Shown here: piece after piece, positions 26,957-47,878 of the stretch | Layout of the letters: each line of letters starts with the position of its first letter | Numbering within the stretch: position 1 is the first letter of the stretch | Assembly (NCBI GenBank): GCA_947478865.1 | Contig: CANJXF010000022.1 | Location: 1 to 62,204, forward strand | Length of the DNA: 62,204 bases | Direction of reading: 5' to 3' | Source: Verrucomicrobiales bacterium | GTDB taxonomy: Bacteria; Verrucomicrobiota; Verrucomicrobiia; Limisphaerales; CANJXF01 | Notes under the pieces: model-generated | Seen by the model: the letters and a program-made list of their open reading frames with translations, nothing else | Told to the model about the DNA's origin: nothing | Databases searched by the model: none | Program-made: the position numbers and the translations under genes

Positions 26957-29071
26957 TCAGTTCGTTGCGTTTTTTCGTGGGCCCACGCCGCGCAAATCGA
27001 ACGACTCAAACCCAAGGCTCCGCGCTGGAGAATCCGGCGCGAGTCCGAAATTCGCCAGGTTGGTCGTGGCGAACCTCGGATTCGCAATCAGAGAATGCTC
27101 GTCGTGTCCGCCTGCGCGCCATTTTTCCCAACCTCCAGGAACGTTGATGGGCGGCGGGTTGGTTCGGAGGTCGAAATAGACATTGTAATCCTGGTTGAAT
27201 TTGCCCCCCTTCCAATCGCCATCGAGCAGTTTGCCCTGGTCAAAATAAACAATGTTTCGCTCGAACGTAAATGACGTGTGTTCCTCGGCACGCGTGCGTT
27301 GCAATTGATGATCGCGCGCGAAGGCAAACACGTTGTTGCGGACAACATTTTCCTTTCCGTAATGCTGATGAAATCCACCGTGCGTCGTGCGGAAGGCCAC
27401 GTTGTTCTCGGCCACAATTCCGGTGCTGCCTTCGTCGAAATAGATGGCCCATCCTCCGTAACGCAGACCGAAAATGTCGTGCCACAGGTTGTTGCGAATC
27501 AGGGTTCCCGGTTGGCCGCCCAGAGTGTAAATACCTCCCATGTCACTGAGGATCGGTCCATCGCCGTTCGCTTTTTGCCCGATGTGGTGGACATGATTGA
27601 ACTCAACAACGTTGTTCGAGGCCGCTGAGGATTTGTAACCCCAGGTCCAGCCGATGGAGATTCCTGTGTAGAAAAAATCGTGAATGGAATTGTGCGCGAG
27701 GCGATTTGCAAACGATTGGCCGATCCAGATTCCTTCTGCGCTATGAAATAATTTTCCGCCGTCGTGAATGGGACAGTCCGCGACCGTGTTATGATGGGTT
27801 TGTTCGAGTGGGTTGGCGCGAATCGCGGTCTCGCCAATTTTGATTCCGCCGCCACCGAGGTCGGAAAACTCGCAGCTAGCAACCAGATTGCTTTGGCTGC
27901 CGCGTCCAAGGTGCAACGCATAGCTGCCCAGGTTAGAAAAACGGCAGCGTTCGAAGGAGGAATAGCGAAGTCCTTCCGCATTAACTGCGCCCGGGACGCC
28001 AATTGCCGCTTGAGAAAATCCCAAAATCTCGGGCTCCGGCTTGGTCGATTTCGGGAAAAACCATTCGTTGTGTGAAAAGGTCAGGTCGCGAAAATGGACA
28101 TATTCAACGACGTTGCTCGATTCGGGTTTGCCTTCCACCCGCAAAATCTCGCTCAACTTCGGCGCGATTACTTCAAACCTGCCGATGGATTCGCCCGGCA
28201 ACGGAAGGTAAGAGACGATGCCGCGTTCGCGATCGAGGAACCATTCACCCGGTTGATCCAGCACTTCGAAAACGCCTTCCACGTAATAAAGATCGCCCGC
28301 CGACAATTGGAAAACGCTGCGCTTGCTTGAGCTGAGGACCCGTTGTTGTTCGTCGATATTGGTGATCGGCAGGCGTGATTCCACCCAGCGCGTCATTACC
28401 ACCGCTTCGCCTTGAGCGGCGGATTTCCATTCGCGCAAATCATTGGTCTGAAAAGAAAATCGCATCTGTCCCTTGGTCCAATTCGTTGTGACGTCAGGTA
28501 AACCAGCGATCTTGAAGTAGCCGTTGTTGGGATGACGCGCGCGCTGGCGGCTCTTGCCATTGACCCAAAGTTCCCGGAAAAACCAACCGGTTTCGCGCGC
28601 CTCCGGCACTTCGGCCTGCCAAAGCTCCTTTCCATCCACGGTCACTTTCTTCCACCCGGAAATCAGTTTTCCGGCGCTCACAACGGGTCGCTCGCCAGGA
28701 AAAGCCGCAATGCTCAATGAGGCTGTTTCTGTTCCCGATAATCTTGAAGTGATGACCAGCGGCTCGGTTAGGAAATGTGTTCCGCCACGGATGAAAATTG
28801 AGACGGGTTGATTCCAGCTCCCGCCTTGCTCTTGCTTGAGCGCACCTGCTGCGCGCAATGCGCGCGGGATACTTTGGAACGGTCCGTCGGTCCGACTCCC
28901 GTTTGCGGCATCAAGGCTCCCGGTCCAGGAATCATTACCGTTGGTCGCGACGAAGTAGGTGCCAGTTCGCGGCCGAGGAATTTCGGCGGCCGCCTGCGTG
29001 TTATCGAGTTGAGCGAAGGCGGAAACTAAACTGAAAATTGCGAGGGGCCCTATCGAATGCATCGTTCTCAT
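26957..29071 (-). CDS. secreted right-handed beta-helix protein, probable polysaccharide-active
   Basis: About 704 residues from ATG 29071, which gives a signal peptide (MRTMHSIGPLAIFSLVSAFA). The frame is open to 29179. After TYFVATNGNDSWTG, an opening typical of secreted beta-helix proteins, there is a beta-sandwich-like region. Then come many short Asn-rich turns (FANRLAHNSIHDF, NNVVEFNHVHHIG, VAENNVAFRTTHGG, VRNNVFAFARD), the repeat of a pectate-lyase-type parallel beta-helix. It probably binds or cleaves a plant or algal glycan; enzyme class and substrate cannot be set. It is divergent from a PSCyt1 gene. Confidence 0.85.
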   Translation of the reverse strand: MRTMHSIGPLAIFSLVSAFAQLDNTQAAAEIPRPRTGTYFVATNGNDSWTGSLDAANGSRTDGPFQSIPRALRAAGALKQEQGGSWNQPVSIFIRGGTHFLTEPLVITSRLSGTETASLSIAAFPGERPVVSAGKLISGWKKVTVDGKELWQAEVPEARETGWFFRELWVNGKSRQRARHPNNGYFKIAGLPDVTTNWTKGQMRFSFQTNDLREWKSAAQGEAVVMTRWVESRLPITNIDEQQRVLSSSKRSVFQLSAGDLYYVEGVFEVLDQPGEWFLDRERGIVSYLPLPGESIGRFEVIAPKLSEILRVEGKPESSNVVEYVHFRDLTFSHNEWFFPKSTKPEPEILGFSQAAIGVPGAVNAEGLRYSSFERCRFSNLGSYALHLGRGSQSNLVASCEFSDLGGGGIKIGETAIRANPLEQTHHNTVADCPIHDGGKLFHSAEGIWIGQSFANRLAHNSIHDFFYTGISIGWTWGYKSSAASNNVVEFNHVHHIGQKANGDGPILSDMGGIYTLGGQPGTLIRNNLWHDIFGLRYGGWAIYFDEGSTGIVAENNVAFRTTHGGFHQHYGKENVVRNNVFAFARDHQLQRTRAEEHTSFTFERNIVYFDQGKLLDGDWKGGKFNQDYNVYFDLRTNPPPINVPGGWEKWRAGGHDEHSLIANPRFATTNLANFGLAPDSPARSLGFESFDLRGVGPRKNATN

Positions 29072-29228
29072 GGAGGGAAGTTGGCACAGGTCGGCCGTGA
29101 ACCTCCAGCTTCGAAAAACAAAACGATTGCGTGTCGTTCTCCTCATTTGCCAGTTCCAATTCCGAAGCACGAACAGCAAAACCTCGCATTGCAGAAACTC
29201 GCGGTTCGAATACTTTCAAACGGTTCAC

Positions 29229-32200
29229 ATGAGAAGACTGTTCAGCAAATGCATTTGGTTTTTGGCGATTGGCTGCTCTGCGGTTGCTGCTGAAATTCCG
29301 GCCGAACAGTTTGAATTCTTTGAGGCCCGGATCCGCCCGGTATTAGTCGAGCGATGCTACAAGTGTCACAGTGCCGACGCTGAAAAAATCAAAGGTGGAT
29401 TGTTGCTCGATAGCAAAGAGGGAATGCTCAAAGGGGGCGAATCCGGAAAGCCGATTCTCGTCCCGCGCGATGCGGAAAGCAGCTTGTTGATTGAAGCTAT
29501 TCGCTATCAGAACGAAGACCTGCAAATGCCGCCAAAGAAAGCGGGCGGGAAATTAAGCGAGACCCAAATCGCCGATTTTGTTTCCTGGATAAAGACGGGC
29601 GCGCCTGATCCGAGGGTTCAAATCACAAAGACCAATATCAGTCTCGGTGCAGCCAGAACGCACTGGGCATTTCAACCCGTTACAAACCCGCCTGTACCAC
29701 TCGTAAAAAACAAACAATGGGTTCGCTCTCCGATCGATGAGTTTATCCTGGCCAAGCTCGAATCGAAGGACTTGCAGCCTTCGCCACAAGCAGACAAACG
29801 CACGCTGATTCGACGGGTCACGTTTGATCTGACCGGCTTGCCGCCGACCTTCGAAGAGGTCGAATTGTTTATCAAAGACAAGTCGACCAATGCGTTTGAG
29901 AAAGTTGTGGACCGCTTGCTGTCCTCTCCGCGCTACGGAGAACGTTGGGGTCGACACTGGCTTGATGTGGCGCGTTACGCTGATACGAAGGGCTACGTTT
30001 ACGGCAACCGCGAAGAGACGAAGTTCGTCCAATCCTATGCTTACCGCGATTGGGTGGTTCGTTCGTTAAATGAGGACCTGCCCTACGATCAGTTTCTGCG
30101 ACTGCAAATCGCCGCCGATCAGATCGAAGGGGCGGATCGCGAATCGCTGGCCGCAATGGGTTTTCTCACGCTGGGTCGCCGGTTTCTCGGGGTGGTCCAC
30201 GACATTATCGACGATCGAATTGATGTCGTGATGCGTGGCACCCAGGCGTTAACCGTCGGTTGCGCCCGTTGTCACGATCATAAATTCGATCCGATTCCCA
30301 CCAGGGATTATTATTCGCTTTACGGCGTTTTCGCCGGTGGAACAGAGCGAACAGTCCCGCTCGCCTCAACCGGGCAATCGGCCAAGGCATTTCTGGATTT
30401 CGAAAAGGAAATGAAAAAGCGCCAGGAGAAATTTCAAATCGCCTTCGACGCGAAACGAGAGGAGCAGAACAAACGGTTGCGGGCGCAAGCAACGGAATAT
30501 CTGGTTGCCGTTCTTAACATTCAGAAATTACCCACGGAAGAATTTTATTCGTTTGTTCAGGCAGATGAAATGAACCCGGTAGTGGCGCGACAATGGCAAT
30601 CGTATTTGCTGAGAACCAAAAATTTTTTCCATCCCGTCTGGTCGCCGTGGCATGCCTATTCCGCTTTGACGCTGAATGAATTCGCAGCAAAGTCCGGCGC
30701 AATTATTTCGTCTCTCACCAAGGCCACGCAAAAACTGAATCCGCTTGTGGTAAAGGCGTTCCAGGAGAATCCGCCCGTCTCGATGATAGCTGCCGCGGAA
30801 ACCTACGGAAAACTCCTGACGAGCCTGGATAAAAAGTGGAGCGATGCCGCCGGCAAAAAAACAGCGTTCAGCGCAGACGAGGAAGAGTTGCGCCAGATTT
30901 TGTATGCGAGCGATTCACCTGCTGCGGTTCCCGCCGGATCGATCGTGGATATGGAATGGTTTTTTGATGAGCCGACCCGCGTGCAACTCTCCTCGCTCTG
31001 CGCGCAAATGGATCAGTGGATCAATCAATCCAGCGGAGCGCCGCCGCATGCCGTGATTTTGGAAGACCGTCCGGTGCAGAAGAATCCGTATGTGTTCAAG
31101 CGCGGAAATCCGGCAAGCAAAGGTGACGAAGTGCCGCGCCAATTCGTCCAGGTAATCGCCGGAGAAAAGCGTAAACCCTTTGAGCGAGGGAGCGGGCGTA
31201 TGGAGTTGGCCGAGGCGATTGCCAGCAAAGAGAATCCGCTCACCGCTCGAGTGATGGTGAATCGCATTTGGGCTCATCACTTCGGCGCAGGAATTGTTCG
31301 CACTCCAAGCGATTTTGGGATGCGCGCCGATGCGCCCAGTCATCCCGAACTGCTCGATTGGTTGGCGTGGAATTTTATGGAGAACGGATGGTCGATGAAG
31401 AAATTGCATCGCCTCATTTTGCTTTCGACAGTTTATCAGCAATCGAGTGATTCGGAAGGATTAGCGGCTGCAGAAACCGTGGATCCAGAAAACAAATTGC
31501 TCTCTCGCATGAACCGGCAGCGCTTGGATTTTGAGGAGCTGCGCGATTCGTTGTTGTCTGCATCCGGGCTTCTGGACTTAAAGCTAGGGGGTAAAGCCGA
31601 AGAACTCTTCAAACCGCCCTTTAGCAAACGGCGTTCGATTTACGGGTTCATTGACCGACAGTTTTTGCCAAGTGCATTTCGCATTTTTGATGTTGCGAAC
31701 CCCGACATGCACACGCCGCAGCGCTCGGAAACAACCGTTCCACAGCAGGCGTTATTTTTCATGAATGGACCTTTTGTGGTTGATCAGGCGAAAGCATTTG
31801 CGGCGCGAATGGATTCGCAAAAAACCAATTCGCCGGAGAGAAGAATCGGAGAATTCTATCACATTGCGTTTCAGCGCGAGCCGACTGGACCGCAAACCCG
31901 GGCTGCGCTTGAGTTCCTTCGCGCGTCTGAGGAGGAATTGAGGCTGGAAGAAAAGCCAAAGCCAACGGATTGGAGATATGGTTTTGGCGAATTTGATGAA
32001 GTCGCGAAATCGCTGAAGCAATTCGAAGCGTTGCCGCATTTCATGGGCGACGCGTGGCAAGGCGGGAGCAAATGGCCGGATGAAAAGTTAGGCTGGGCGC
32101 AACTGACCGCGACCGGCGGCCATGCGGGAAATGATTTGCAACATGCCGTAGTGCGGCGTTGGGTGTCGCAGATTGACGGAGTGATTTCCGTTGCCAGCAC

Positions 32201-32564
32201 CATTCGACATGAGCGCTCGTTGGGCGATGGAATTCGCGCTTACCTCGTTTCGAGTCGCAATGGTTTGCTTGGAAAATGGGTTCTGCACAATCAGAGTGCC
32301 GACGCAAGAGCCGAGCGCGTTGAGGTAAAAAAAGGCGACACGCTTGATTTTATCGTCTCGATCCATGCAAGTTTGAATAACAATGATTTCATTTGGACGC
32401 CCGTGATTCGAATGGCTGGTTCTGGCGCCGCGGGCGATGCAAGAGAGTGGAGTGCGGCAAAGGAATTTGGCGGTCCTGCGACAACGCAAGAGAAGCCTCT
32501 CACTGCCTGGGAGAAATATGCGCAAGTGCTGCTGCTCTCGAACGAGTTTTTGTTTGTGGATTAA
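29229..32564 (+). CDS. PSCyt1-DUF1549-DUF1553 protein
   Basis: A secreted protein of about 1111 residues characteristic of Planctomycetes and Verrucomicrobia. ATG 29229 gives a signal peptide (LFSKCIWFLAIGCSAVAAE); the frame is open back to 29070. The PSCyt1 domain has the haem motif CYKCH. DUF1549 follows with SPIDEFILAKLE, GERWGRHWLDVARYAD and a second CxxCH in GCARCHDHKFDPI. DUF1553 comes next with NRIWAHHFGAGIV and QQSSDSEG. A C-terminal extension of about 170 residues resembles a carbohydrate-binding or sandwich domain. The function is unknown. It is followed 34 bases later by its usual partner, DUF1501. Confidence 0.9.
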   Translation: MRRLFSKCIWFLAIGCSAVAAEIPAEQFEFFEARIRPVLVERCYKCHSADAEKIKGGLLLDSKEGMLKGGESGKPILVPRDAESSLLIEAIRYQNEDLQMPPKKAGGKLSETQIADFVSWIKTGAPDPRVQITKTNISLGAARTHWAFQPVTNPPVPLVKNKQWVRSPIDEFILAKLESKDLQPSPQADKRTLIRRVTFDLTGLPPTFEEVELFIKDKSTNAFEKVVDRLLSSPRYGERWGRHWLDVARYADTKGYVYGNREETKFVQSYAYRDWVVRSLNEDLPYDQFLRLQIAADQIEGADRESLAAMGFLTLGRRFLGVVHDIIDDRIDVVMRGTQALTVGCARCHDHKFDPIPTRDYYSLYGVFAGGTERTVPLASTGQSAKAFLDFEKEMKKRQEKFQIAFDAKREEQNKRLRAQATEYLVAVLNIQKLPTEEFYSFVQADEMNPVVARQWQSYLLRTKNFFHPVWSPWHAYSALTLNEFAAKSGAIISSLTKATQKLNPLVVKAFQENPPVSMIAAAETYGKLLTSLDKKWSDAAGKKTAFSADEEELRQILYASDSPAAVPAGSIVDMEWFFDEPTRVQLSSLCAQMDQWINQSSGAPPHAVILEDRPVQKNPYVFKRGNPASKGDEVPRQFVQVIAGEKRKPFERGSGRMELAEAIASKENPLTARVMVNRIWAHHFGAGIVRTPSDFGMRADAPSHPELLDWLAWNFMENGWSMKKLHRLILLSTVYQQSSDSEGLAAAETVDPENKLLSRMNRQRLDFEELRDSLLSASGLLDLKLGGKAEELFKPPFSKRRSIYGFIDRQFLPSAFRIFDVANPDMHTPQRSETTVPQQALFFMNGPFVVDQAKAFAARMDSQKTNSPERRIGEFYHIAFQREPTGPQTRAALEFLRASEEELRLEEKPKPTDWRYGFGEFDEVAKSLKQFEALPHFMGDAWQGGSKWPDEKLGWAQLTATGGHAGNDLQHAVVRRWVSQIDGVISVASTIRHERSLGDGIRAYLVSSRNGLLGKWVLHNQSADARAERVEVKKGDTLDFIVSIHASLNNNDFIWTPVIRMAGSGAAGDAREWSAAKEFGGPATTQEKPLTAWEKYAQVLLLSNEFLFVD

Positions 32565-32598
32565 CCGATGATGGAAACACAAATTTATTTCTGAATTT

Positions 32599-34041
32599 AT
32601 GAGTTTTCAATCGCCATCTGATCATGGTTCCTTCACGCGCCGGGATTTCTTGCGCAAGTGCGGAATGGGCATGGGCGCAGTGAGTTTGGCGGCACTCTTC
32701 GGAGAGGCGGGAATACTTTCGCCATTGGCGCACGCTGCGGAAAACTTGAATCCACTCTCTCCCAAGCCGTCGCATTTCCCGGGTCGGGCCAAACGCGTGG
32801 TTCACATTTTTCTCAACGGCGGTCCGTCCCACGTGGACACCTTCGATCCCAAACCTGCTCTGGCAAAATACGTGGGAAAATCGTTGCCCGGCGAATACAT
32901 CAAAACGGAACGCAAAACAGGCTCGGCCTTTCCTTCGCCGTTCAAATTCAAGAAGTGCGGGCAAAGCGGAATTGAGGTGAGCGATCTCTTTCCGAAAATC
33001 GGAGAGCTGATTGATGAGTTCGCGGTCATTCGCTCGATGAAAGCCGAAGTGCCCAATCACGAGCCGTCGTTGATGCTCATGAACTGCGGCGATTCCGTGC
33101 AAAGTCGACCTAGCATGGGATCGTGGGTGACTTACGGGTTGGGTTCCGAAAACTTGAATCTGCCGGGCTTCATTGTGATGTGTCCCGGCGGCTATCCGGT
33201 GAAGGAAACGGACAATTGGCAAAATGGATTTTTGCCAGGCATGTATCAGGGCACCTACATCGATTCGCAATACACAAAAATCGAGAAGCTCATCGAAAAT
33301 ATTCGGAACAACTACACCTCCTTGAAGTCGCAACGCGATCAGCTCGATTTGCTGCAACAAATTAATCTGGAACACCAGCAAACGAGGCAGCGCGATTCCC
33401 GGCTGGAAGCGCGAATTCAATCATTTGAGCTGGCTTATCGCATGCAGATGGAAGCGGCGGATGCGTTTGACGTCACCGGCGAACCGCAGATGATCCGCGA
33501 GATGTATGGCGATGGAGTGCATGGTCGGCAAACCCTGATTGCGCGCCGTTTGCTCGAGCGCGGCGTGCGTTTCATTCAGCTTTGGCATGGCGCGGGACAG
33601 CCTTGGGACAATCACGAGAAAATTGAAGAAGGGCATCGCAAGCTGGCGAAGGAGATCGATCAACCCGTGGCGGCCTTGATCAATGATTTGAAACAGCGCG
33701 GGATGCTCGATGACACTTTGATTATTTTTTGCGGAGAATTCGGTCGCACGCCGACAGTGGAGTTAAGCGGCAAAGGCGAAGCGATCCTTGGCCGCGATCA
33801 TAATCCGTTCGGTTTTACTGCGCTGCTCGCCGGCGGCGGGGTGCGGGGCGGAACGGTCTACGGGGCCACGGATGAATTCGGTTTTAAGGCGGTGGAAAAT
33901 CCCGTTCACGTTCACGATCTTCACGCGACGGTTCTTCATCTGTTGGGATTTGATCACGAGAAATTTACGCATCGTTATGCTGGACGCGATTTTCGTCTCA
34001 CCGATGTCTACGGTCGCGTGATCAAGGAAGTTGTGGCGTAA
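32599..34041 (+). CDS. DUF1501 Tat-exported protein
   Basis: 480 residues of the DUF1501 family, related to alkaline-phosphatase/sulfatase folds. A twin-arginine signal is visible (FTRRDFLRK followed by a hydrophobic segment ending AHAAE). Core motifs are IFLNGGPSHVDTFDPKP, FCGEFGRTP, LGRDHNPFGF and VHDLHATVLHLLG, whose Asp and His residues look like metal ligands. It forms a two-gene unit with the preceding PSCyt1 protein, the arrangement seen widely in PVC bacteria. The reaction is not established. Confidence 0.9.
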   Translation: MSFQSPSDHGSFTRRDFLRKCGMGMGAVSLAALFGEAGILSPLAHAAENLNPLSPKPSHFPGRAKRVVHIFLNGGPSHVDTFDPKPALAKYVGKSLPGEYIKTERKTGSAFPSPFKFKKCGQSGIEVSDLFPKIGELIDEFAVIRSMKAEVPNHEPSLMLMNCGDSVQSRPSMGSWVTYGLGSENLNLPGFIVMCPGGYPVKETDNWQNGFLPGMYQGTYIDSQYTKIEKLIENIRNNYTSLKSQRDQLDLLQQINLEHQQTRQRDSRLEARIQSFELAYRMQMEAADAFDVTGEPQMIREMYGDGVHGRQTLIARRLLERGVRFIQLWHGAGQPWDNHEKIEEGHRKLAKEIDQPVAALINDLKQRGMLDDTLIIFCGEFGRTPTVELSGKGEAILGRDHNPFGFTALLAGGGVRGGTVYGATDEFGFKAVENPVHVHDLHATVLHLLGFDHEKFTHRYAGRDFRLTDVYGRVIKEVVA

Positions 34042-36163: not shown

Positions 36164-36273
36164 AGGGAAATTAACTTGAATCGAGCGAGCCACCAAACCC
36201 AGTGCGCCTCGTCGGTGAAAATAAATGAAAACAATTTGTCCAGTTTCGTGCTGCGCGGACATCTTATCAGTAG

Positions 36274-39072
36274 ATGACTGAACTGGACGATCATGAATTG
36301 CTCGCGCAATTCGCCCGCACCCAATCCGAAGCGGCGTTCGCTGCCCTCGTCGAGCGGCATGTGAATCTCGTCTATTCCGCCGCGTTGCGCTTCACCGGTA
36401 ATCCCCATCACGCTGAGGAAATTACTCAGGCCGTCTTCATCATTCTGGCGCGCAAAGCGGGGAGTTTGCGGCGTGGCACGGTGTTGTCCGGGTGGCTTTA
36501 TCAAACCGCGCGGCTGACGGCGGCCAATTTTGTGAAAGGGGAAATCCGCCGGCGCAACCGCGAACAGGAGTTCTATATGCAATCCACTTTGACCGAACCA
36601 GAAACGGCGGCGTGGGAACGAGTCGAACCATTGCTCGACGAAGCAATGGGTCGGCTGGGCGAAACCGACCGCAACGCCGTCGTGTTGCGCTTCTTCGAAA
36701 ACAAAACCACCCAAGAAGTCGCCACTACCTTGAAGATGAATGAAGCAGCGGCGCATAAGCGAGTCAGTCGCGCGCTGAACAAGTTGCATAAGTTTTTCAC
36801 CAAACGCGGCGTGACGCTGACAACGGTGGCGATTGCCGGGGCGATGGCGGCAAACTCAGTGCAGGCCGCGCCGGCAGGCTTGGCGACAACGGTAGTGACG
36901 ACGGCGGCAAAAGGAGCAATGGCAACAGTTGGTGTTGGGATTGGAACAAAAATTATCTCAACATTTAGCAAAACGTTATTGTTTTCTTGGTTTGTGCCTC
37001 TGCTTTCTCTGATTGGAACACTGCCAAGTTTGGCTTTTGTGTCCATTGTTGGGAGGATGGAACGAAAGAATTTCCGTGACCCGCAAGGATTCCGTCTGCA
37101 ATTGCATCGTCTATCTTTCAGAAGCTACATATGGGGTTTTCCGCTGGTAGTGGTGATCGTTGCCATCGTCAATCACTCAGCTCTGGCGGCTTGGGGAATC
37201 AGCGGCCAGCAACTTGCCCTCGTTTGCTTTTTATTGATAATTACGCTGATTTCGGCGCGTTCGTTGACGATTTGTCGCAACCAGTTTCAAGTCGGAATGT
37301 TTGCCTACTGCGTGATTATTTTGGTTGGTATTTCAGCTCGGGCGCTGGGGTGGATTCCTCAAAGCTTGGCGCAACTTCCTCTTCTGGCAGCCACATTGGT
37401 TTTCTTCCTGATCTTCAAACAACGTCCGACCCGGATGGACTACAGTTTAATTCTGCGTGCAGCGCAGAAAATGTTGAAGTTTTCCGTCAAAGCGGATGAC
37501 GCGGCCCAAGGAAATCGATTTGACAGACGGCAATTGCTGGCTTTTGCGCGGTTCCTTGGCTCGCGCTTCCTTGTGTGCAACTTTCGCTGGGGAAAAAATG
37601 GATTGGTGCTGCGGTTGCCACCGGTCAGAAATAGATTCCTGACAACCATGGCCAGTGGGTTCATGCCACCGATCAGCCAGAAGTGCTCGCAAATTTTATT
37701 AGGTTGGAATGGAACGGTCATAGCGCTCTGCGGCAAATCAGATTTGTTGGATTTGTCGGCGCTGAAAACCACCGGCATGACCGATCCGCGAGAACTTGAA
37801 TCGTTCGTCGCCGAAATTGTCTCGCAGGCGTGGCAGCAATTCCGCAACGGAAATCTCTCGGCGGCGGAATTTACTTTGGGAGAGGCGCCAGACTCGGAAG
37901 TGTTTGTTGTGCCGCCAGGCCGAGCCAAATCAACGCGTTGGTGGCGGATTTTTATCGGTGCCAACGTGATATTGATGATGGCTGGAATTATTCTGCAATT
38001 CTGGCGACTGCCCGCGTGGATAAATGGATTGAGACCTGTATCGGTTACAGAAGCGGAAGTCCGCGGGTTTTTGAACGACGCTACGCCGAACCCGGATCCA
38101 AAAAAATACAAGTTCAACAGTGCTGGTCTCGCGCTATTCAATTGCCTGGTTCTCCCGCCGACAAATCTATTCTCCGCGGGCGGCTTCCGGGCGATGGAGG
38201 ATCAGATTGCGCACGGTTCTGGGTCTGATTCGTTGAAACAAAACGACTGGCGAACTAACTGGGTATTTGATTCGCCATTGGTGCGCCGTGCTCTGTTCGG
38301 CGGTTGGGTCACTTGGAACGATCTGGGAATTCAGCGACCGGATTTAGCGGTATTTCTCCACACCAATCACTTTCAGATTAATTCGCCGGAAAAATGGGAT
38401 TATTTTCTGGCGCGCGGTGCTGCTTGGTCTTGGGTGAAGCAGGAAGGGTTTGATGTGATGCGGATACAGTTTGAAGGGGTGGGGCGGCTTTGGCTTTTGC
38501 GCGACGTCAACTGCCTCGACCTGACCGACCCCGAGAAACTCATTCAACAAATCTCTTCCGTGCAAACTCTATCCGGCACGCCGCCCGGCCAACCGCCGAT
38601 CCATGACTGGCGAGACGTGCGCGGTCTGTTTTTCACGTCCTGCTGGCCCGCTTTGCAAGACACCTATTTCTCTCTGGCCGCGTTGGAAATTCTTGGCGGA
38701 TTGGACAGAATTAACCGCGAGGCCTGCATCGAAGGGATTCTGAACAGACATCGAGGCAGAGGTTATTTCACATCACCCGATTCCGGCGGATTCAACGAAT
38801 ACCACATTGACGGCAGCGCACGCGACACCATTGCTGCCTTTGAATCTCTGCGCATACTCGGCGCGTTGGACCGTGTGAAGGATTTGGAAAAATGGGAGTT
38901 CCGTGTGTCGTCAAGAAATTCATCCAAACCCGCTGCAAACGGCGTCCGAAATCTTACTTGGAACGAAGTTGAGGCATGGGCCTGCCAGCAGCGCCTGAAA
39001 ACAATCATCAAGGAACGAACAGGAAATCCCCAAAAGCCATTTGGTTCTCTATTGGATACGCACGGCCTATAA
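36274..39072 (+). CDS. ECF-like sigma factor fused to a polytopic membrane region and a prenyltransferase/cyclase-like domain
   Basis: 932 residues in one uninterrupted frame. Residues 10-85 are sigma region 2 (DHELLAQFARTQSEAAF, HHAEEITQAVFIILARKA), and 112-172 are region 4 (TTQEVATTLKMNEAAAHKRV). A hydrophobic segment at 182-199 ends VQAAP, like a signal-peptidase site. More membrane segments follow at about 231-259, 285-303, 313-330, 341-358, 366-384 and 557-577. Residues 775-875 contain two alpha-helical repeats (TYFSLAALEILGGLDRINRE, DTIAAFESLRILGALDRV) resembling prenyltransferase/squalene-oxidase repeats, with GRGYF between them. It may be a membrane-held sigma factor that senses a ligand or is released by proteolysis. 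Sigma factors with membrane tails are known in this lineage; this C-terminal pairing is unfamiliar to me. Confidence 0.85.
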   Translation: MTELDDHELLAQFARTQSEAAFAALVERHVNLVYSAALRFTGNPHHAEEITQAVFIILARKAGSLRRGTVLSGWLYQTARLTAANFVKGEIRRRNREQEFYMQSTLTEPETAAWERVEPLLDEAMGRLGETDRNAVVLRFFENKTTQEVATTLKMNEAAAHKRVSRALNKLHKFFTKRGVTLTTVAIAGAMAANSVQAAPAGLATTVVTTAAKGAMATVGVGIGTKIISTFSKTLLFSWFVPLLSLIGTLPSLAFVSIVGRMERKNFRDPQGFRLQLHRLSFRSYIWGFPLVVVIVAIVNHSALAAWGISGQQLALVCFLLIITLISARSLTICRNQFQVGMFAYCVIILVGISARALGWIPQSLAQLPLLAATLVFFLIFKQRPTRMDYSLILRAAQKMLKFSVKADDAAQGNRFDRRQLLAFARFLGSRFLVCNFRWGKNGLVLRLPPVRNRFLTTMASGFMPPISQKCSQILLGWNGTVIALCGKSDLLDLSALKTTGMTDPRELESFVAEIVSQAWQQFRNGNLSAAEFTLGEAPDSEVFVVPPGRAKSTRWWRIFIGANVILMMAGIILQFWRLPAWINGLRPVSVTEAEVRGFLNDATPNPDPKKYKFNSAGLALFNCLVLPPTNLFSAGGFRAMEDQIAHGSGSDSLKQNDWRTNWVFDSPLVRRALFGGWVTWNDLGIQRPDLAVFLHTNHFQINSPEKWDYFLARGAAWSWVKQEGFDVMRIQFEGVGRLWLLRDVNCLDLTDPEKLIQQISSVQTLSGTPPGQPPIHDWRDVRGLFFTSCWPALQDTYFSLAALEILGGLDRINREACIEGILNRHRGRGYFTSPDSGGFNEYHIDGSARDTIAAFESLRILGALDRVKDLEKWEFRVSSRNSSKPAANGVRNLTWNEVEAWACQQRLKTIIKERTGNPQKPFGSLLDTHGL

Positions 39073-43928: not shown

Positions 43929-46394
43929 ATGAATTGGCTCGTCCGTATTTTGTCTCTGATGGCATTGACCGTTCCTGCTCTTTCAGCGGAGCAGGTGAAT
44001 TATCTCAAGGAAATCAAACCGCTTCTTTCCGGGGCTTGCTACCAATGCCACAGCGAAACGCAACAGAAAGGCGGTTTGCGTTTAGACACCGGCGCAAACG
44101 CACGCAAAGGCGGAGAGAAGGGGGCGGTCATTGTTCCCGGAAGAAGTGACGAGAGCCTTTTGATCAAGGCAGTGATGGGCGTTGCAAAAGATTTGCCCCG
44201 CATGCCTTACAAGAAATCTCCGCTCGATGACGAGAAGGTCGCACTGCTTAAAAAGTGGATTGATGAAGGCGCGAAGTCTCCCGCCAACGAGAAAGCGGAA
44301 TCTGTTTTGCATTGGGCTTTCGTCCCATCGCCAGCCGTGGTTCCGGTTCCCTCAGTTAAGCAAACCAAGTGGCCGCGCAACGACATTGATCACTTCATTC
44401 TCGCTCGGTTGGAAAAACAGCACATCAAACCTTCGCCCGAAGCGGATCGCGTCACGCTGATTCGCCGTGTCAGCCTGGATCTCACCGGTCTTCCTCCGAG
44501 CATCGCGGAGGTGGATGAGTTTCTGAAAGACAAGCGCGCCGACGCTTACGACAGGTTGGTGGAACGGTTGCTTGGTTCCAAACATTACGGCGAACGTTGG
44601 GGGCGGCATTGGCTCGACGCCGCGCGTTACGCGGATTCCAACGGCTACAGCATTGATGCGCCGCGGCAGATTTGGAAATATCGCGATTGGGTCATTCACG
44701 CCTTCAACCGCGACATGCCCTTTGACGAATTCACGATCGATCAATTGGCGGGCGATTTGCGACCCAACGCAACCCTTGAACAAAAGGTTGCCACCGGTTT
44801 CCATCGCAACACGCAGATCAATCAGGAAGGCGGAATCGACAAGGAACAGTTTCGCGTCGAATCGATTGTCGATCGCGTCAACACCACGGCGGGAACCTGG
44901 CTGGGTCTGACGATGGGATGCGCGCAATGTCACGATCACAAATTCGATCCGATCGCGCAGAAGGAGTATTATCAACTCTTCGCGTTTCTCAATAACCAGG
45001 AGGAGCCGGACCTGGAAATCCCCAGTGCACCCGATCTTCAACGTCAGGAAACCTTGCGCAAAGAATTCACGAGCGCGGAAAACGAGCTTAAGGCTTATGT
45101 CGATTCCGCTGCTGGCGATGTCTCAATGTGGCAAAAATCGCTTTCTCCCGAGCAGGTCGCGAAATTGAAGCCCGAGATCAAAACCGTTTTGGAAACGCCT
45201 TTCGACAAGCGGACGCTGAAGCAAAAGCTGGTGCTGGTGGATCAAATCCGCAAGGGCAACGAGGATTACAAAAGGAAGAAGTCTCAATTTACGAAATTCG
45301 AGAAAACGAAACTCGATCTGACGACTACCATGGTTTTGCAAGAACGAAGCGAGCCGAGGCAATCGTATCTATTCATCAAGGGCGATTTCACGCGCCACGG
45401 CGACATCGTCACTCCCGGCGTGCCGAAAATTCTGCCGCCATTGCCCGCTGAAACGAAAAACCCAAACCGTCTCGACCTGGCGAAGTGGCTGGTTGATCCA
45501 AAGAATCCGTTGCCCGCGCGCGTCACGATGAACCGCATCTGGATGCAGTATTTCGCCAAAGGAATCGTAGAGACGGAAAATGATTTTGGCACGCAAGGCT
45601 CCGGTCCGTCGCATCCTGAATTGCTCGATTGGCTCGCGAATGAATTCCTCAGACAGAAGTGGAGCCAGAAGGCGATGCACCGGCTTATTGTGACTTCCGC
45701 AACCTACCGCCAGTCGTCACGCGCTCGTCCGGATTTGAACATCCTCGATCCCTACAACAAATTGCTCGCGCGACAAAATCGCTTTCGTCTCGATGCTGAA
45801 GTGGTGCGCGATGTCGAACTCACCGTGAGCGGTTTACTCAACGACGAAGTTGGCGGCCCAAGTGTTTTCCCGCCCATTCCCGATGGCGTAATGACTCTCG
45901 GCCAAAGCAAACGCGAATGGAAAACCAGCGAAGGGCCCGCTCGCTATCGTCGCGGCATGTACACCTTTTTCTATCGCGCCACGCCTCCGCCCGGCTTGAT
46001 GGTTTTTGATGCGCCAGAAACCACCAGCACTTGCACCCGCCGCCTTCGCTCCAACACGCCGTTGCAATCGCTCACGCTCCTGAACGACGCTGGGTTCATG
46101 GAGTTTGCGCAAAGCCTCGCTCTTCGGGTGTTGAAGGAGGTTCCGGAGAATGACAACGCCCGCATCGATCACGCCTTTCGACTTTGCCTCTCGCGTGAAC
46201 CGAAGCGCGATGAGCAACAGCGATTAAGGGAACTGCTCGATTCGCAGTTGAAGAGCTACGATTCGCAGCCGGAGGAAGCGAAAGCGTTGTCGCCGAAAAA
46301 TCTCCCCGCCCACGCAAACGTAAAGCAACTGGCCGCGTGGACCACGGTTTCGCGCGTCTTGCTGAACCTCGACGAAACCATCACGCGGGAATAG
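43929..46394 (+). CDS. PSCyt1-DUF1549-DUF1553 protein
   Basis: 821 residues, the compact form of this PVC family. Signal peptide NWLVRILSLMALTVPALSAE. The PSCyt1 haem motif is CYQCH. DUF1549 has GERWGRHWLDAARYADSNGY and a second CxxCH in GCAQCHDHKFDPI. A charged helical linker at about 375-465 is followed by DUF1553 with NRIWMQYFAKGIVETENDFG, ATYRQSSRARPD and RRLRSNTPLQSL. It lacks the C-terminal extension of the paralogue at 29229. It is followed 14 bases later by DUF1501. Confidence 0.92.
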   Translation: MNWLVRILSLMALTVPALSAEQVNYLKEIKPLLSGACYQCHSETQQKGGLRLDTGANARKGGEKGAVIVPGRSDESLLIKAVMGVAKDLPRMPYKKSPLDDEKVALLKKWIDEGAKSPANEKAESVLHWAFVPSPAVVPVPSVKQTKWPRNDIDHFILARLEKQHIKPSPEADRVTLIRRVSLDLTGLPPSIAEVDEFLKDKRADAYDRLVERLLGSKHYGERWGRHWLDAARYADSNGYSIDAPRQIWKYRDWVIHAFNRDMPFDEFTIDQLAGDLRPNATLEQKVATGFHRNTQINQEGGIDKEQFRVESIVDRVNTTAGTWLGLTMGCAQCHDHKFDPIAQKEYYQLFAFLNNQEEPDLEIPSAPDLQRQETLRKEFTSAENELKAYVDSAAGDVSMWQKSLSPEQVAKLKPEIKTVLETPFDKRTLKQKLVLVDQIRKGNEDYKRKKSQFTKFEKTKLDLTTTMVLQERSEPRQSYLFIKGDFTRHGDIVTPGVPKILPPLPAETKNPNRLDLAKWLVDPKNPLPARVTMNRIWMQYFAKGIVETENDFGTQGSGPSHPELLDWLANEFLRQKWSQKAMHRLIVTSATYRQSSRARPDLNILDPYNKLLARQNRFRLDAEVVRDVELTVSGLLNDEVGGPSVFPPIPDGVMTLGQSKREWKTSEGPARYRRGMYTFFYRATPPPGLMVFDAPETTSTCTRRLRSNTPLQSLTLLNDAGFMEFAQSLALRVLKEVPENDNARIDHAFRLCLSREPKRDEQQRLRELLDSQLKSYDSQPEEAKALSPKNLPAHANVKQLAAWTTVSRVLLNLDETITRE

Positions 46395-46408
46395 ATCGGC
46401 TGAAAACT

Positions 46409-47878
46409 ATGTTAAGTGCGCCCAACGATTTTCAGTCAGACAAACTTCGCGAGTCCACGCGTCGCCAATTCTTCGGCCGATGCGTCATGGGCCTAGGCTC
46501 CATCGCGCTCGCCTCCTTGCTGAGCGAGCAAAAGCTTTTCGCCGCTGAGCCAGTCAAGCTGGTCAATCCGCTGGATCCGCGTCCTGGCCATTTTCCCGCC
46601 AAAGTCAAAAACATCATCTACCTTTTCATGGCCGGAGGCCCGAGCCAGCTTGAGTTGTTCGATTACAAACCGAAGCTGGTCGAGCTCAACGGCAAACCGA
46701 TTCCCGATTCCTATCTCAAGGGAAAACGATTCGCGTTCATGGATACTTTTGCCAAGGACCCGCCCAAGCTTCTTGGCACGCGCCGCAAATTCGCGCAGCA
46801 CGGCAACAGTGGCGCATGGGTTTCAGAATTGTTCCCGCACACCGCCGGCATCGTGGATGACATCTCCCTCGTTCATTCGTGCGCGACGGATGTTTTCAAT
46901 CATGCACCCGCCAAGTTGTTCATGAACACCGGTTCCTCGCAGTTCGGCCGGCCGAGCATGGGCGCATGGGTGACTTATGGAATCGGGAGTGAATCGAAAG
47001 ACTTACCCGGCTTCGTCGTCTTGCAATCCGGCCCGCGTGGTCCGCGCGGCGGTGCGGTGAATTGGGCGAGCGGATTTTTACCGACGACCTATCAAGGCGT
47101 CCCGTTGCGTGGACAAGGCGAGCCGATTTTAAATTTGAGCAGCCCGCAAGGGGTGAGCGCCAATCGTCAACGCCAGACTATCGATGCCATTCGCGATTTG
47201 AATTTGAAACGGTTGGTGGAAACCGGCGATGAAGAAATTCGCACCCGCATTTCGGCCTACGAAATGGCCTATCGCATGCAAAGCAGCGCGCCGGAGTTGA
47301 TCGATCTTTCCAGCGAAACGCAGGCGACAAAAGATTTATACGGCATCACGGAAGGCGAACCCTCCTTCGCGCGAAATTGCCTGCTCGCTCGCCGCCTGGT
47401 GGAACGCGGGTCGCGCTTTGTGCAACTTTATCACACCAATTGGGATAGCCACGGCGGCCCGGGCGAAGACCTCGAAAAATCTTTCGAGAAAGTCACTCGC
47501 GAAGTGGACCAACCGTGCGCCGCGCTCATCAAGGATCTCAAACAACGCGGCATGCTCGATGACACGCTGGTCATCTGGGGTGGCGAATTCGGCCGCACGC
47601 CGATGGGTGAGAATCGCGATTCCACCGGTCGCAATCATCACATTGATTCATTCACGATGTGGTTCGCCGGCGCGGGTGTGAAAGCCGGGCAAGTCCTCGG
47701 CCAGACGGACGAGCTTGGCTTCAGCCCTGTCGAAGATCGTTGCCACGTCCACGATATCCACGCGACCATCCTGCACTTGCTCGGGCTCGAACACACCAGG
47801 CTGACCTTCCGCTTCCAAGGTCGCGACTTCCGCCTGACCGATGTCCATGGAGAATTGATCCACAAGCTCATGGCGTAA
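46409..47878 (+). CDS. DUF1501 Tat-exported protein
   Basis: 489 residues from ATG 46409; the frame is open 72 bases upstream into the previous gene. A twin-arginine signal is visible (STRRQFFGR, then a hydrophobic stretch ending KLFAAE). Family motifs are YLFMAGGPSQLELFDYKP, WGGEFGRTPMGE, GRNHHIDSFT and VHDIHATILHLLGL. The potential metal-binding Asp and His residues are retained. It is the second DUF1501 of the window and pairs with the upstream PSCyt1 protein. The function is unknown. Confidence 0.9.
   Translation: MLSAPNDFQSDKLRESTRRQFFGRCVMGLGSIALASLLSEQKLFAAEPVKLVNPLDPRPGHFPAKVKNIIYLFMAGGPSQLELFDYKPKLVELNGKPIPDSYLKGKRFAFMDTFAKDPPKLLGTRRKFAQHGNSGAWVSELFPHTAGIVDDISLVHSCATDVFNHAPAKLFMNTGSSQFGRPSMGAWVTYGIGSESKDLPGFVVLQSGPRGPRGGAVNWASGFLPTTYQGVPLRGQGEPILNLSSPQGVSANRQRQTIDAIRDLNLKRLVETGDEEIRTRISAYEMAYRMQSSAPELIDLSSETQATKDLYGITEGEPSFARNCLLARRLVERGSRFVQLYHTNWDSHGGPGEDLEKSFEKVTREVDQPCAALIKDLKQRGMLDDTLVIWGGEFGRTPMGENRDSTGRNHHIDSFTMWFAGAGVKAGQVLGQTDELGFSPVEDRCHVHDIHATILHLLGLEHTRLTFRFQGRDFRLTDVHGELIHKLMA

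Follow-up and report, generated by a model that had tools for sequence, protein, structure and literature searches.

The gene at positions 36274-39072 (+) of the window, by which we mean the whole 62,204-nt stretch of DNA analyzed here, is a single intact ORF of 932 aa without an internal stop. Comparison with its relatives suggests that the gene is a mosaic, in which an ECF sigma module of one type (type A) has been placed on a polytopic membrane tail older than its present sigma factor. At least two independent sigma exchanges are recognized in this tail family by conflicting phylogenetic trees. With a probability of roughly 0.6, we regard the product as a one-protein transmembrane signalling unit, combining a membrane-held ECF sigma factor, a polytopic tail and a putatively non-catalytic toroid for sensing or binding with autoregulation and cassette exchange. 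The features of the gene are as follows.

36237..36262 (+), ECF promoter of type A (TGTCCAGTTTCGTGCTGCGCGGACAT), predicted to serve autoregulation and located 11 nt upstream of the start codon
36274..36801 (+), ECF sigma module of type A, residues 1-176, with region 2 at 25-88 and region 4 at 121-171
36811..36882 (+), residues 180-203, a segment of weak hydrophobicity with ANSVQAAPAGL at its end, a signature of sigma type A
36901..36993 (+), residues 210-240, where the sigma cassette gives way to the tail, a mosaic junction placed by the identity crossover
36973..37416 (+), polytopic membrane region of five hydrophobic segments, residues 234-381, from hydropathy, loop charges in 18 homologues and model helices
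37423..37929 (+), conserved domain of unknown fold, residues 384-552, with residues invariant in 18 homologues; the positive-inside rule predicts a cytoplasmic location
37945..38004 (+), last membrane segment, residues 558-577 (KD 2.03; K+R in the flanks of 26 homologues add up to 85 N-terminally and 52 C-terminally)
38005..39069 (+), alpha/alpha-toroid like that of protein prenyltransferase beta subunits, residues 578-932, predicted extracytoplasmic

Architecture of the protein

Along the ORF, the ECF sigma module (1-176) is followed by a linker with the VQAAP motif, five membrane segments, the 384-552 domain, a sixth segment and the toroid (578-932). Both sigma regions score above the curated Pfam cut-offs, region 2 (PF04542, residues 25-88) with an E-value of 1e-12 and 48.2 bits (cut-off 24) and region 4 (PF08281, residues 121-171) with 9e-9 and 35.3 bits (cut-off 25.7), and the module also matches TIGR02937 (E 2e-18, 66.4 bits, cut-off 42.9). 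By sequence the protein is an ECF sigma factor (sigma-70 group 4), and the complete module claimed in a preliminary description of this DNA is confirmed over residues 1-176; its Foldseek matches are SigW, AlgU and sigmaE. The same description had named degenerate sigma regions in conserved homologues as a ground for refutation, and among the type-A members scanned none was seen: all 35 match both regions. Binding of core polymerase and promoter-specific initiation are predicted, with indirect support from a promoter motif that follows the sigma type (see below).

Type-A sigmas with unrelated tails match the sigma module with identities of up to 77%. At E 1e-25, type-A sigmas occur in 106 of the 196 genomes of the order, often many per genome and in frames of about 240 to 1144 aa. 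Their common layout is a sigma module ending in ANSVQAAPxGL, about 39 residues, a membrane segment and then varied outer domains, namely DUF3738 (5 of the 35 members), HAF, HEAT repeats, a DUF5122 propeller, and secretin-like and BamE-like domains. The own genome holds four type-A paralogues (L002, L003, L004 and the short L005), and among these the same sigma type is fused to HEAT repeats (L004 1492-3321) and to HAF repeats (L002 22-2157 (-)). DUF3738/TIGR03435 was listed by eye as the outer domain of five membrane-tailed sigmas (L058, L063, L066, L074 and L081), with TIGR03435 confirmed for L058 and L066.

The VQAAP sequence (residues 196-200) had been taken for a processing site that would free the sigma factor. 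Its A199-P200 pair is invariant in 35 type-A members, and the motif is absent from divergent homologues that have the same tail and another sigma, so that it is better described as a signature of sigma type A. In addition, signal-peptidase cleavage at this point would leave the sigma factor joined to the hydrophobic segment, which weakens the processing interpretation. The segment 180-203 has a KD of about 1.2, below that of true membrane segments, and the charges flanking it in single-segment type-A paralogues (89 vs 59) suggest that VQAAP lies on the cytoplasmic side. The linker (residues 183-236) contains no Cys or His and has a pLDDT below 50 in the full-length model, the mean of which is 78.6.

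Hydropathy reveals six clear membrane segments, with peaks near residues 250, 300, 325, 349, 372 and 568 (KD 1.85-2.3), and one weak stretch over residues 180-232 (KD 1.0-1.2), in agreement with the earlier count of about seven. Mean K+R numbers in 18 homologues are 7.1, 2.5 and 4.1 for the loops 258-284, 328-338 and 382-405, against 1.0 and 0.2 for the alternate loops. By the positive-inside rule, the sigma module, loops 258-284 and 328-338 and the 384-552 domain are predicted to be inside and the C-terminal domain outside; the charge flanks of the last segment agree weakly with the latter (85 vs 52). This topology is not fully consistent, since keeping the sigma module and loop 258-284 on one side needs an even number of crossings and only one clear segment lies between them. 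The number becomes even if the VQAAP segment crosses the membrane or if the first segment forms a re-entrant hairpin, and on which side of the membrane the toroid lies is uncertain. The 384-552 domain has no recurrent Pfam family and no convincing match among PDB sequences. Its top PDB matches, short stretches of designed or unrelated proteins, were rejected as fold candidates. A Pfam scan of the C-terminal extension found no anti-sigma or zinc-finger family, and the domain may have a diverged anti-sigma function.

For the C-terminal domain, the fold search proposed earlier did find an alpha/alpha-toroid. Modelled alone (AF2), the domain has a pLDDT of 81 and a pTM of 0.87, and its first 49 rows in VIA-align consist entirely of protein prenyltransferase beta subunits (Z from 13.5 to 11.0), headed by 6j74_B (Z 13.5, 270 residues aligned, rmsd 4.3 for the predicted model). 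Foldseek gives E 6e-5 to 6o60_B, with squalene-hopene and type II terpene cyclases lower in its list, and the nearest structural relatives are protein prenyltransferases. Helical or repeat models can reach Z of about 13 in this aligner through arrangement alone, and therefore the sequence evidence matters. A profile search matches GGTase-I beta among PDB sequences with E 9e-8, and Pfam Prenyltrans is found in 12 of 14 members (best E 4.5e-8); in the present protein alone it falls below the cut-off (residues 741-868, E 0.0013). Taken together, the predicted structure is an alpha/alpha-toroid of the protein prenyltransferase beta subunit kind. The two squalene-oxidase/prenyltransferase-like repeats of the preliminary description were thus a real resemblance, though an understated one, the whole domain of about 355 residues being a toroid.

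The zinc ligands of protein prenyltransferases are an Asp-x-Cys pair and a distant His, and DxDD is the catalytic motif of squalene-hopene and type II terpene cyclases. In the toroid family, D-x-C is absent from 14 of 16 members and unconserved in the other two, DxDD occurs in none of the 16, and conservation of Cys and His is limited to C818 and H826, which are near each other in sequence. The lack of conserved D-x-C and DxDD motifs does not support a prenyl-transferring enzyme or an isoprenoid receptor, and the isoprenoid ligand suggested earlier is further disfavored by nearest folds that are protein prenyltransferases rather than terpene cyclases. We infer that the toroid is non-catalytic; it might still bind a lipid or have another activity.

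A search with the tail alone gave matches in 22 of the 196 genomes of the same order, nearly all of them fused to an ECF sigma module. Complete members have frames of 912-990 aa, and recurrence of the full architecture at this length in many genomes, down to 22-30% identity, argues that it did not arise by chance. Further relatives are mainly from Verrucomicrobia, with one recorded as Sedimentisphaerales (Planctomycetota) and shorter ones in Omnitrophota and Sumerlaeota. The tail family is rare in the wider phylum (the own genome and 2 of 387), and no phage relative was found among PHROGs. The Omnitrophota/Sumerlaeota proteins (L053 and L054) end within a few residues of the last membrane segment, which defines the core unit as sigma module, membrane region, 384-552 domain and last segment. 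A different C-terminal domain, TPR-like by eye, is present in L022, L023, L026, L050 and L051 (in L050 without a Pfam match); both observations indicate that the toroid is not essential to the family. In L050, a 46-residue ORF directly downstream matches the toroid C-terminus (54% across 24 residues), a match that could reflect replacement of the toroid by the other domain. Short ORFs matching only the toroid C-terminus (EAWVCQQRL) were seen at L050 3378-3515, L030 and L032 and appear to be remnants. Another polytopic gene, L052 3891-4631 (the same as L024), retains little of the sigma module and lacks the first membrane segments, apparently through an in-frame deletion.

The source genome is a 4.4-Mb draft of 114 contigs. 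At the locus, the Pfam scan identified a BtpA-family gene upstream on the same strand and an HrpB-like helicase gene downstream on the opposite strand, and found no adjoining anti-sigma gene. No conserved operon partner or neighborhood common to most tail homologues was found; an adjacent methyltransferase gene is common only to L039, L050 and L051, and the latter two also have a cation-efflux gene. Gene pairs flank the sigma gene on both sides (window positions 29070-34041 and 43929-47878); 32599-34041 encodes a DUF1501 protein (Pfam), and the partners resemble planctomycete-type cytochrome (DUF1549/DUF1553) proteins by eye.

Mosaic gene and promoter classes

Identity of the present protein to L012, of which L036 is another copy in the set of homologues, amounts to 25% for the sigma module and to 61-65% for the membrane region, middle domain and toroid. 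Across the junction, the L036 protein becomes more similar, going from 13% to 43-87% identity, and identity to type-A sigmas is 53-63% over residues 181-210, about 30% over 211-240 and lower beyond. The sigma tree is divided into a type-B clade of 20 polytopic members and a type-A clade of 32 other sigmas together with those of the present gene, L040 and L026, both with support 100. The AU test on this tree rejects all polytopic sigmas as one clade (p 9e-7) and the present sigma, L040 and L026 as one clade (p 1e-5), and does not reject a clade of the present sigma and L040 (p 0.16). In the tail tree these three proteins are scattered, and their union in one clade is rejected with an AU p of 5e-52. 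The L040 gene was taken from a 3 kb contig that apparently wraps round its ends, its C-terminus being cut. Three separate exchanges, as suggested by the sigma tree, are not claimed because of the p of 0.16 for the pair, and we count at least two. Type A replacing type B is the probable direction, as type B is the more widespread partner of the tail.

The two sigma types are preceded by different conserved motifs. For type A, the de novo motif TTGTC...TTTT.......GCGG.CAT was found at 36 genes with 23.9 bits per sequence (8-9 for shuffles), and for type B the motif TGTAACCTTT..........G.TGTCTT at 22 genes with 28.5 bits (9-11 for shuffles); nearly all sites of both end 3-20 nt before the start codon. 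The two classes and the widths of the motifs were fixed after inspection of the sequences. On this basis, the A motif scores a median of 25.9 and at least 6.7 bits at A genes vs at most 3.7 bits at B genes, and the B motif a median of 29.6 and at least 19.9 bits at B genes vs at most 5.1 bits at A genes. In a leave-one-out calculation, the A scores are 20.1 bits for the present gene, 29.7 for L040 and 26.2 for L026, and the best type-B gene reaches 6.0; the B scores of the three are negative. Similarly, regular expressions written after inspection match 23 of 36 A genes and none of 22 B genes (A pattern), and 15 of 22 B genes and none of 36 A genes (B pattern). By this evidence the promoter goes with the sigma type and not with the tail. 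The present gene has the promoter of its present sigma type, and therefore both autoregulation and exchange of promoter and sigma module as one cassette are predicted.

Without mismatch, the A pattern occurs once in the 4.4-Mb genome, at this gene. Allowing up to three mismatches gives 64 matches, vs 43 for the reversed control; among those checked, only the ones at this gene, L002 and L004 lie at the right distance before the right kind of gene. In 15 relatives, 11 of the 18 matches with at most one mismatch lie 10-11 nt before a type-A sigma gene. Six of the eight exact type-B matches precede the polytopic sigma gene itself, and another precedes a stand-alone gene at L148, whose product is 31% identical to the L062 tail (E 1e-24). 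The latter (L148, about 1590-2650) encodes a single-segment protein homologous to the tails of the L062 and L065 sigma fusions. These results support autoregulation, and the own gene may be the main target.

Working model and alternative readings

In the model that we prefer, the polytopic tail would tether its own ECF sigma factor to the cytoplasmic side of the membrane, and the toroid would most likely act in sensing or binding on the extracytoplasmic side. When a signal reaches the toroid, the membrane region and the adjoining conserved cytoplasmic domain would be altered and the sigma module then freed, probably through proteolytic cleavage of the linker (residues 183-236) or otherwise through a conformational change. 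The freed sigma factor would guide RNA polymerase to the type-A promoter, and since this lies immediately upstream of its own start codon, activation would feed back on its own gene. The 5' cassette (promoter, sigma module and VQAAP linker) appears to have been exchanged onto an older tail, which in relatives has the other sigma type and promoter. A sigma factor with its own membrane receptor, the central idea of the preliminary description, is plausible: the fusion of sigma factor, membrane region and toroid is conserved as a family, and the parts of that idea that do not hold up are the isoprenoid ligand, release at VQAAP and the newness of the design.

A more specific proposal, which we put forward only tentatively and at somewhat below even odds, is that promoter and sigma module travel as one cassette between membrane tails and that the main target is the own gene, forming a closed self-amplifying circuit; if true, a single step would suffice for evolution to connect a transmembrane receptor with a new transcriptional output. 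The target searches would also fit a closed self-regulating gene in which the tail is the output, the sigma factor controlling its own membrane or envelope protein and the C-terminal domain being an effector, not a sensor. This agrees with the A-pattern matches, which in the own genome are near background apart from this gene and two type-A paralogues among those checked and in 15 genomes mostly (11 of 18) precede type-A sigma genes, and with the tail homologue at L148 behind an exact type-B match. However, other targets may have weaker promoters that the strict pattern misses, and L148 is a single case with its promoter 63 nt from the start codon; we consider this reading unlikely.

The remaining explanations are less probable again. 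Were the tail a membrane enzyme (a prenyl- or other transferase) whose production the sigma factor regulates, its fold and profile similarity to protein prenyltransferase beta subunits would be accounted for, but the conserved zinc-site D-x-C and the DxDD motif are missing and C818 and H826 stand close together, making such an enzyme improbable. We give similarly little credence to an isoprenoid or similar lipid that binds the toroid or membrane region, with cleavage at VQAAP freeing the sigma factor. Known relatives of the toroid do house isoprenoids and VQA/AP resembles a signal-peptidase site, but VQAAP does not occur in divergent homologues sharing this tail, the hydrophobicity of the segment is weak, the charges in single-segment paralogues suggest a cytoplasmic position for it, and no ligand residues were recognized in the toroid. 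Finally, a chimeric assembly or a decayed gene might be suspected from a draft of 114 contigs and a sharp mosaic junction; an open frame over 932 codons, type-A sigmas on the same tail family in the independent genomes of L040 and L026, and a fitting promoter in place make an artefact very improbable. The signalling unit described above remains our preferred reading.

Comparison with known systems

Control of most ECF sigma factors lies with a separate anti-sigma protein. The lineage studied here has a large set of sigma factors carrying their own membrane tail, mostly behind a promoter that matches the sigma type. Since a single gene reveals sigma specificity, promoter and outer domain together, sigma-promoter pairs should be predictable directly. 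The sigma exchange indicates that in nature the input half of such a receptor can be separated from its output half, and this could be of use for synthetic membrane-gated transcription switches.

With a sigma module and six clear membrane segments in a single ORF, the protein is a membrane-tethered ECF sigma factor. Such proteins have been described: a review covers ECF sigmas that carry C-terminal extensions, among them membrane-fused proteins for which activation by proteolysis is assumed or demonstrated (IutY, ECF48, ECF52 and ECF53; PMC8999054), and the 'new signalling design' of the preliminary description is in this respect not new. In IutY of Pseudomonas putida (ECF243), a sigma factor is fused to a membrane-bound anti-sigma factor and released by regulated proteolysis involving Prc and RseP (PMC8999054), and for SCO4117 of Streptomyces coelicolor (ECF52) autoregulation has been suggested (PMC5826349). 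In the model above, proteolysis would be the probable route of release for the present sigma factor as well. A literature search, to which the main ECF classification did not belong, found neither a prenyltransferase-like sigma tail nor these Verrucomicrobial families. What appears to be new is the mosaic gene with its sigma exchanges, and a separate conserved promoter for each sigma type about 10 bases before the start codon. The preliminary description had noticed neither the exchange nor the promoter.

Like IutY, the protein combines an N-terminal ECF sigma factor and a C-terminal membrane-bound regulatory part in one polypeptide. Unlike IutY, which acts in iron-starvation cell-surface signalling and contains an anti-sigma factor, it has a polytopic tail with a toroid and no recognized anti-sigma domain. 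It shares with ECF52, ECF48 and ECF53 a C-terminal extension with membrane helices, to which ECF52 adds an extracytoplasmic binding domain; these groups have a zinc-finger anti-sigma domain, and ECF52 is restricted to Actinobacteria, whereas in the present protein no zinc finger was found and a prenyltransferase-like toroid is predicted outside. Its type-A paralogues (L002, L003, L004 and L056-L084) have the sigma module, VQAAP linker and promoter motif in common with it and differ in having mostly a single membrane segment and another outer domain (DUF3738/TIGR03435, HAF, HEAT, DUF5122, secretin and others). Finally, the predicted model resembles the beta subunits of protein geranylgeranyl- and farnesyltransferases in forming an alpha/alpha-toroid over the whole domain; unlike those subunits, this toroid is without the conserved D-x-C and is fused to a membrane sigma factor in a bacterium.
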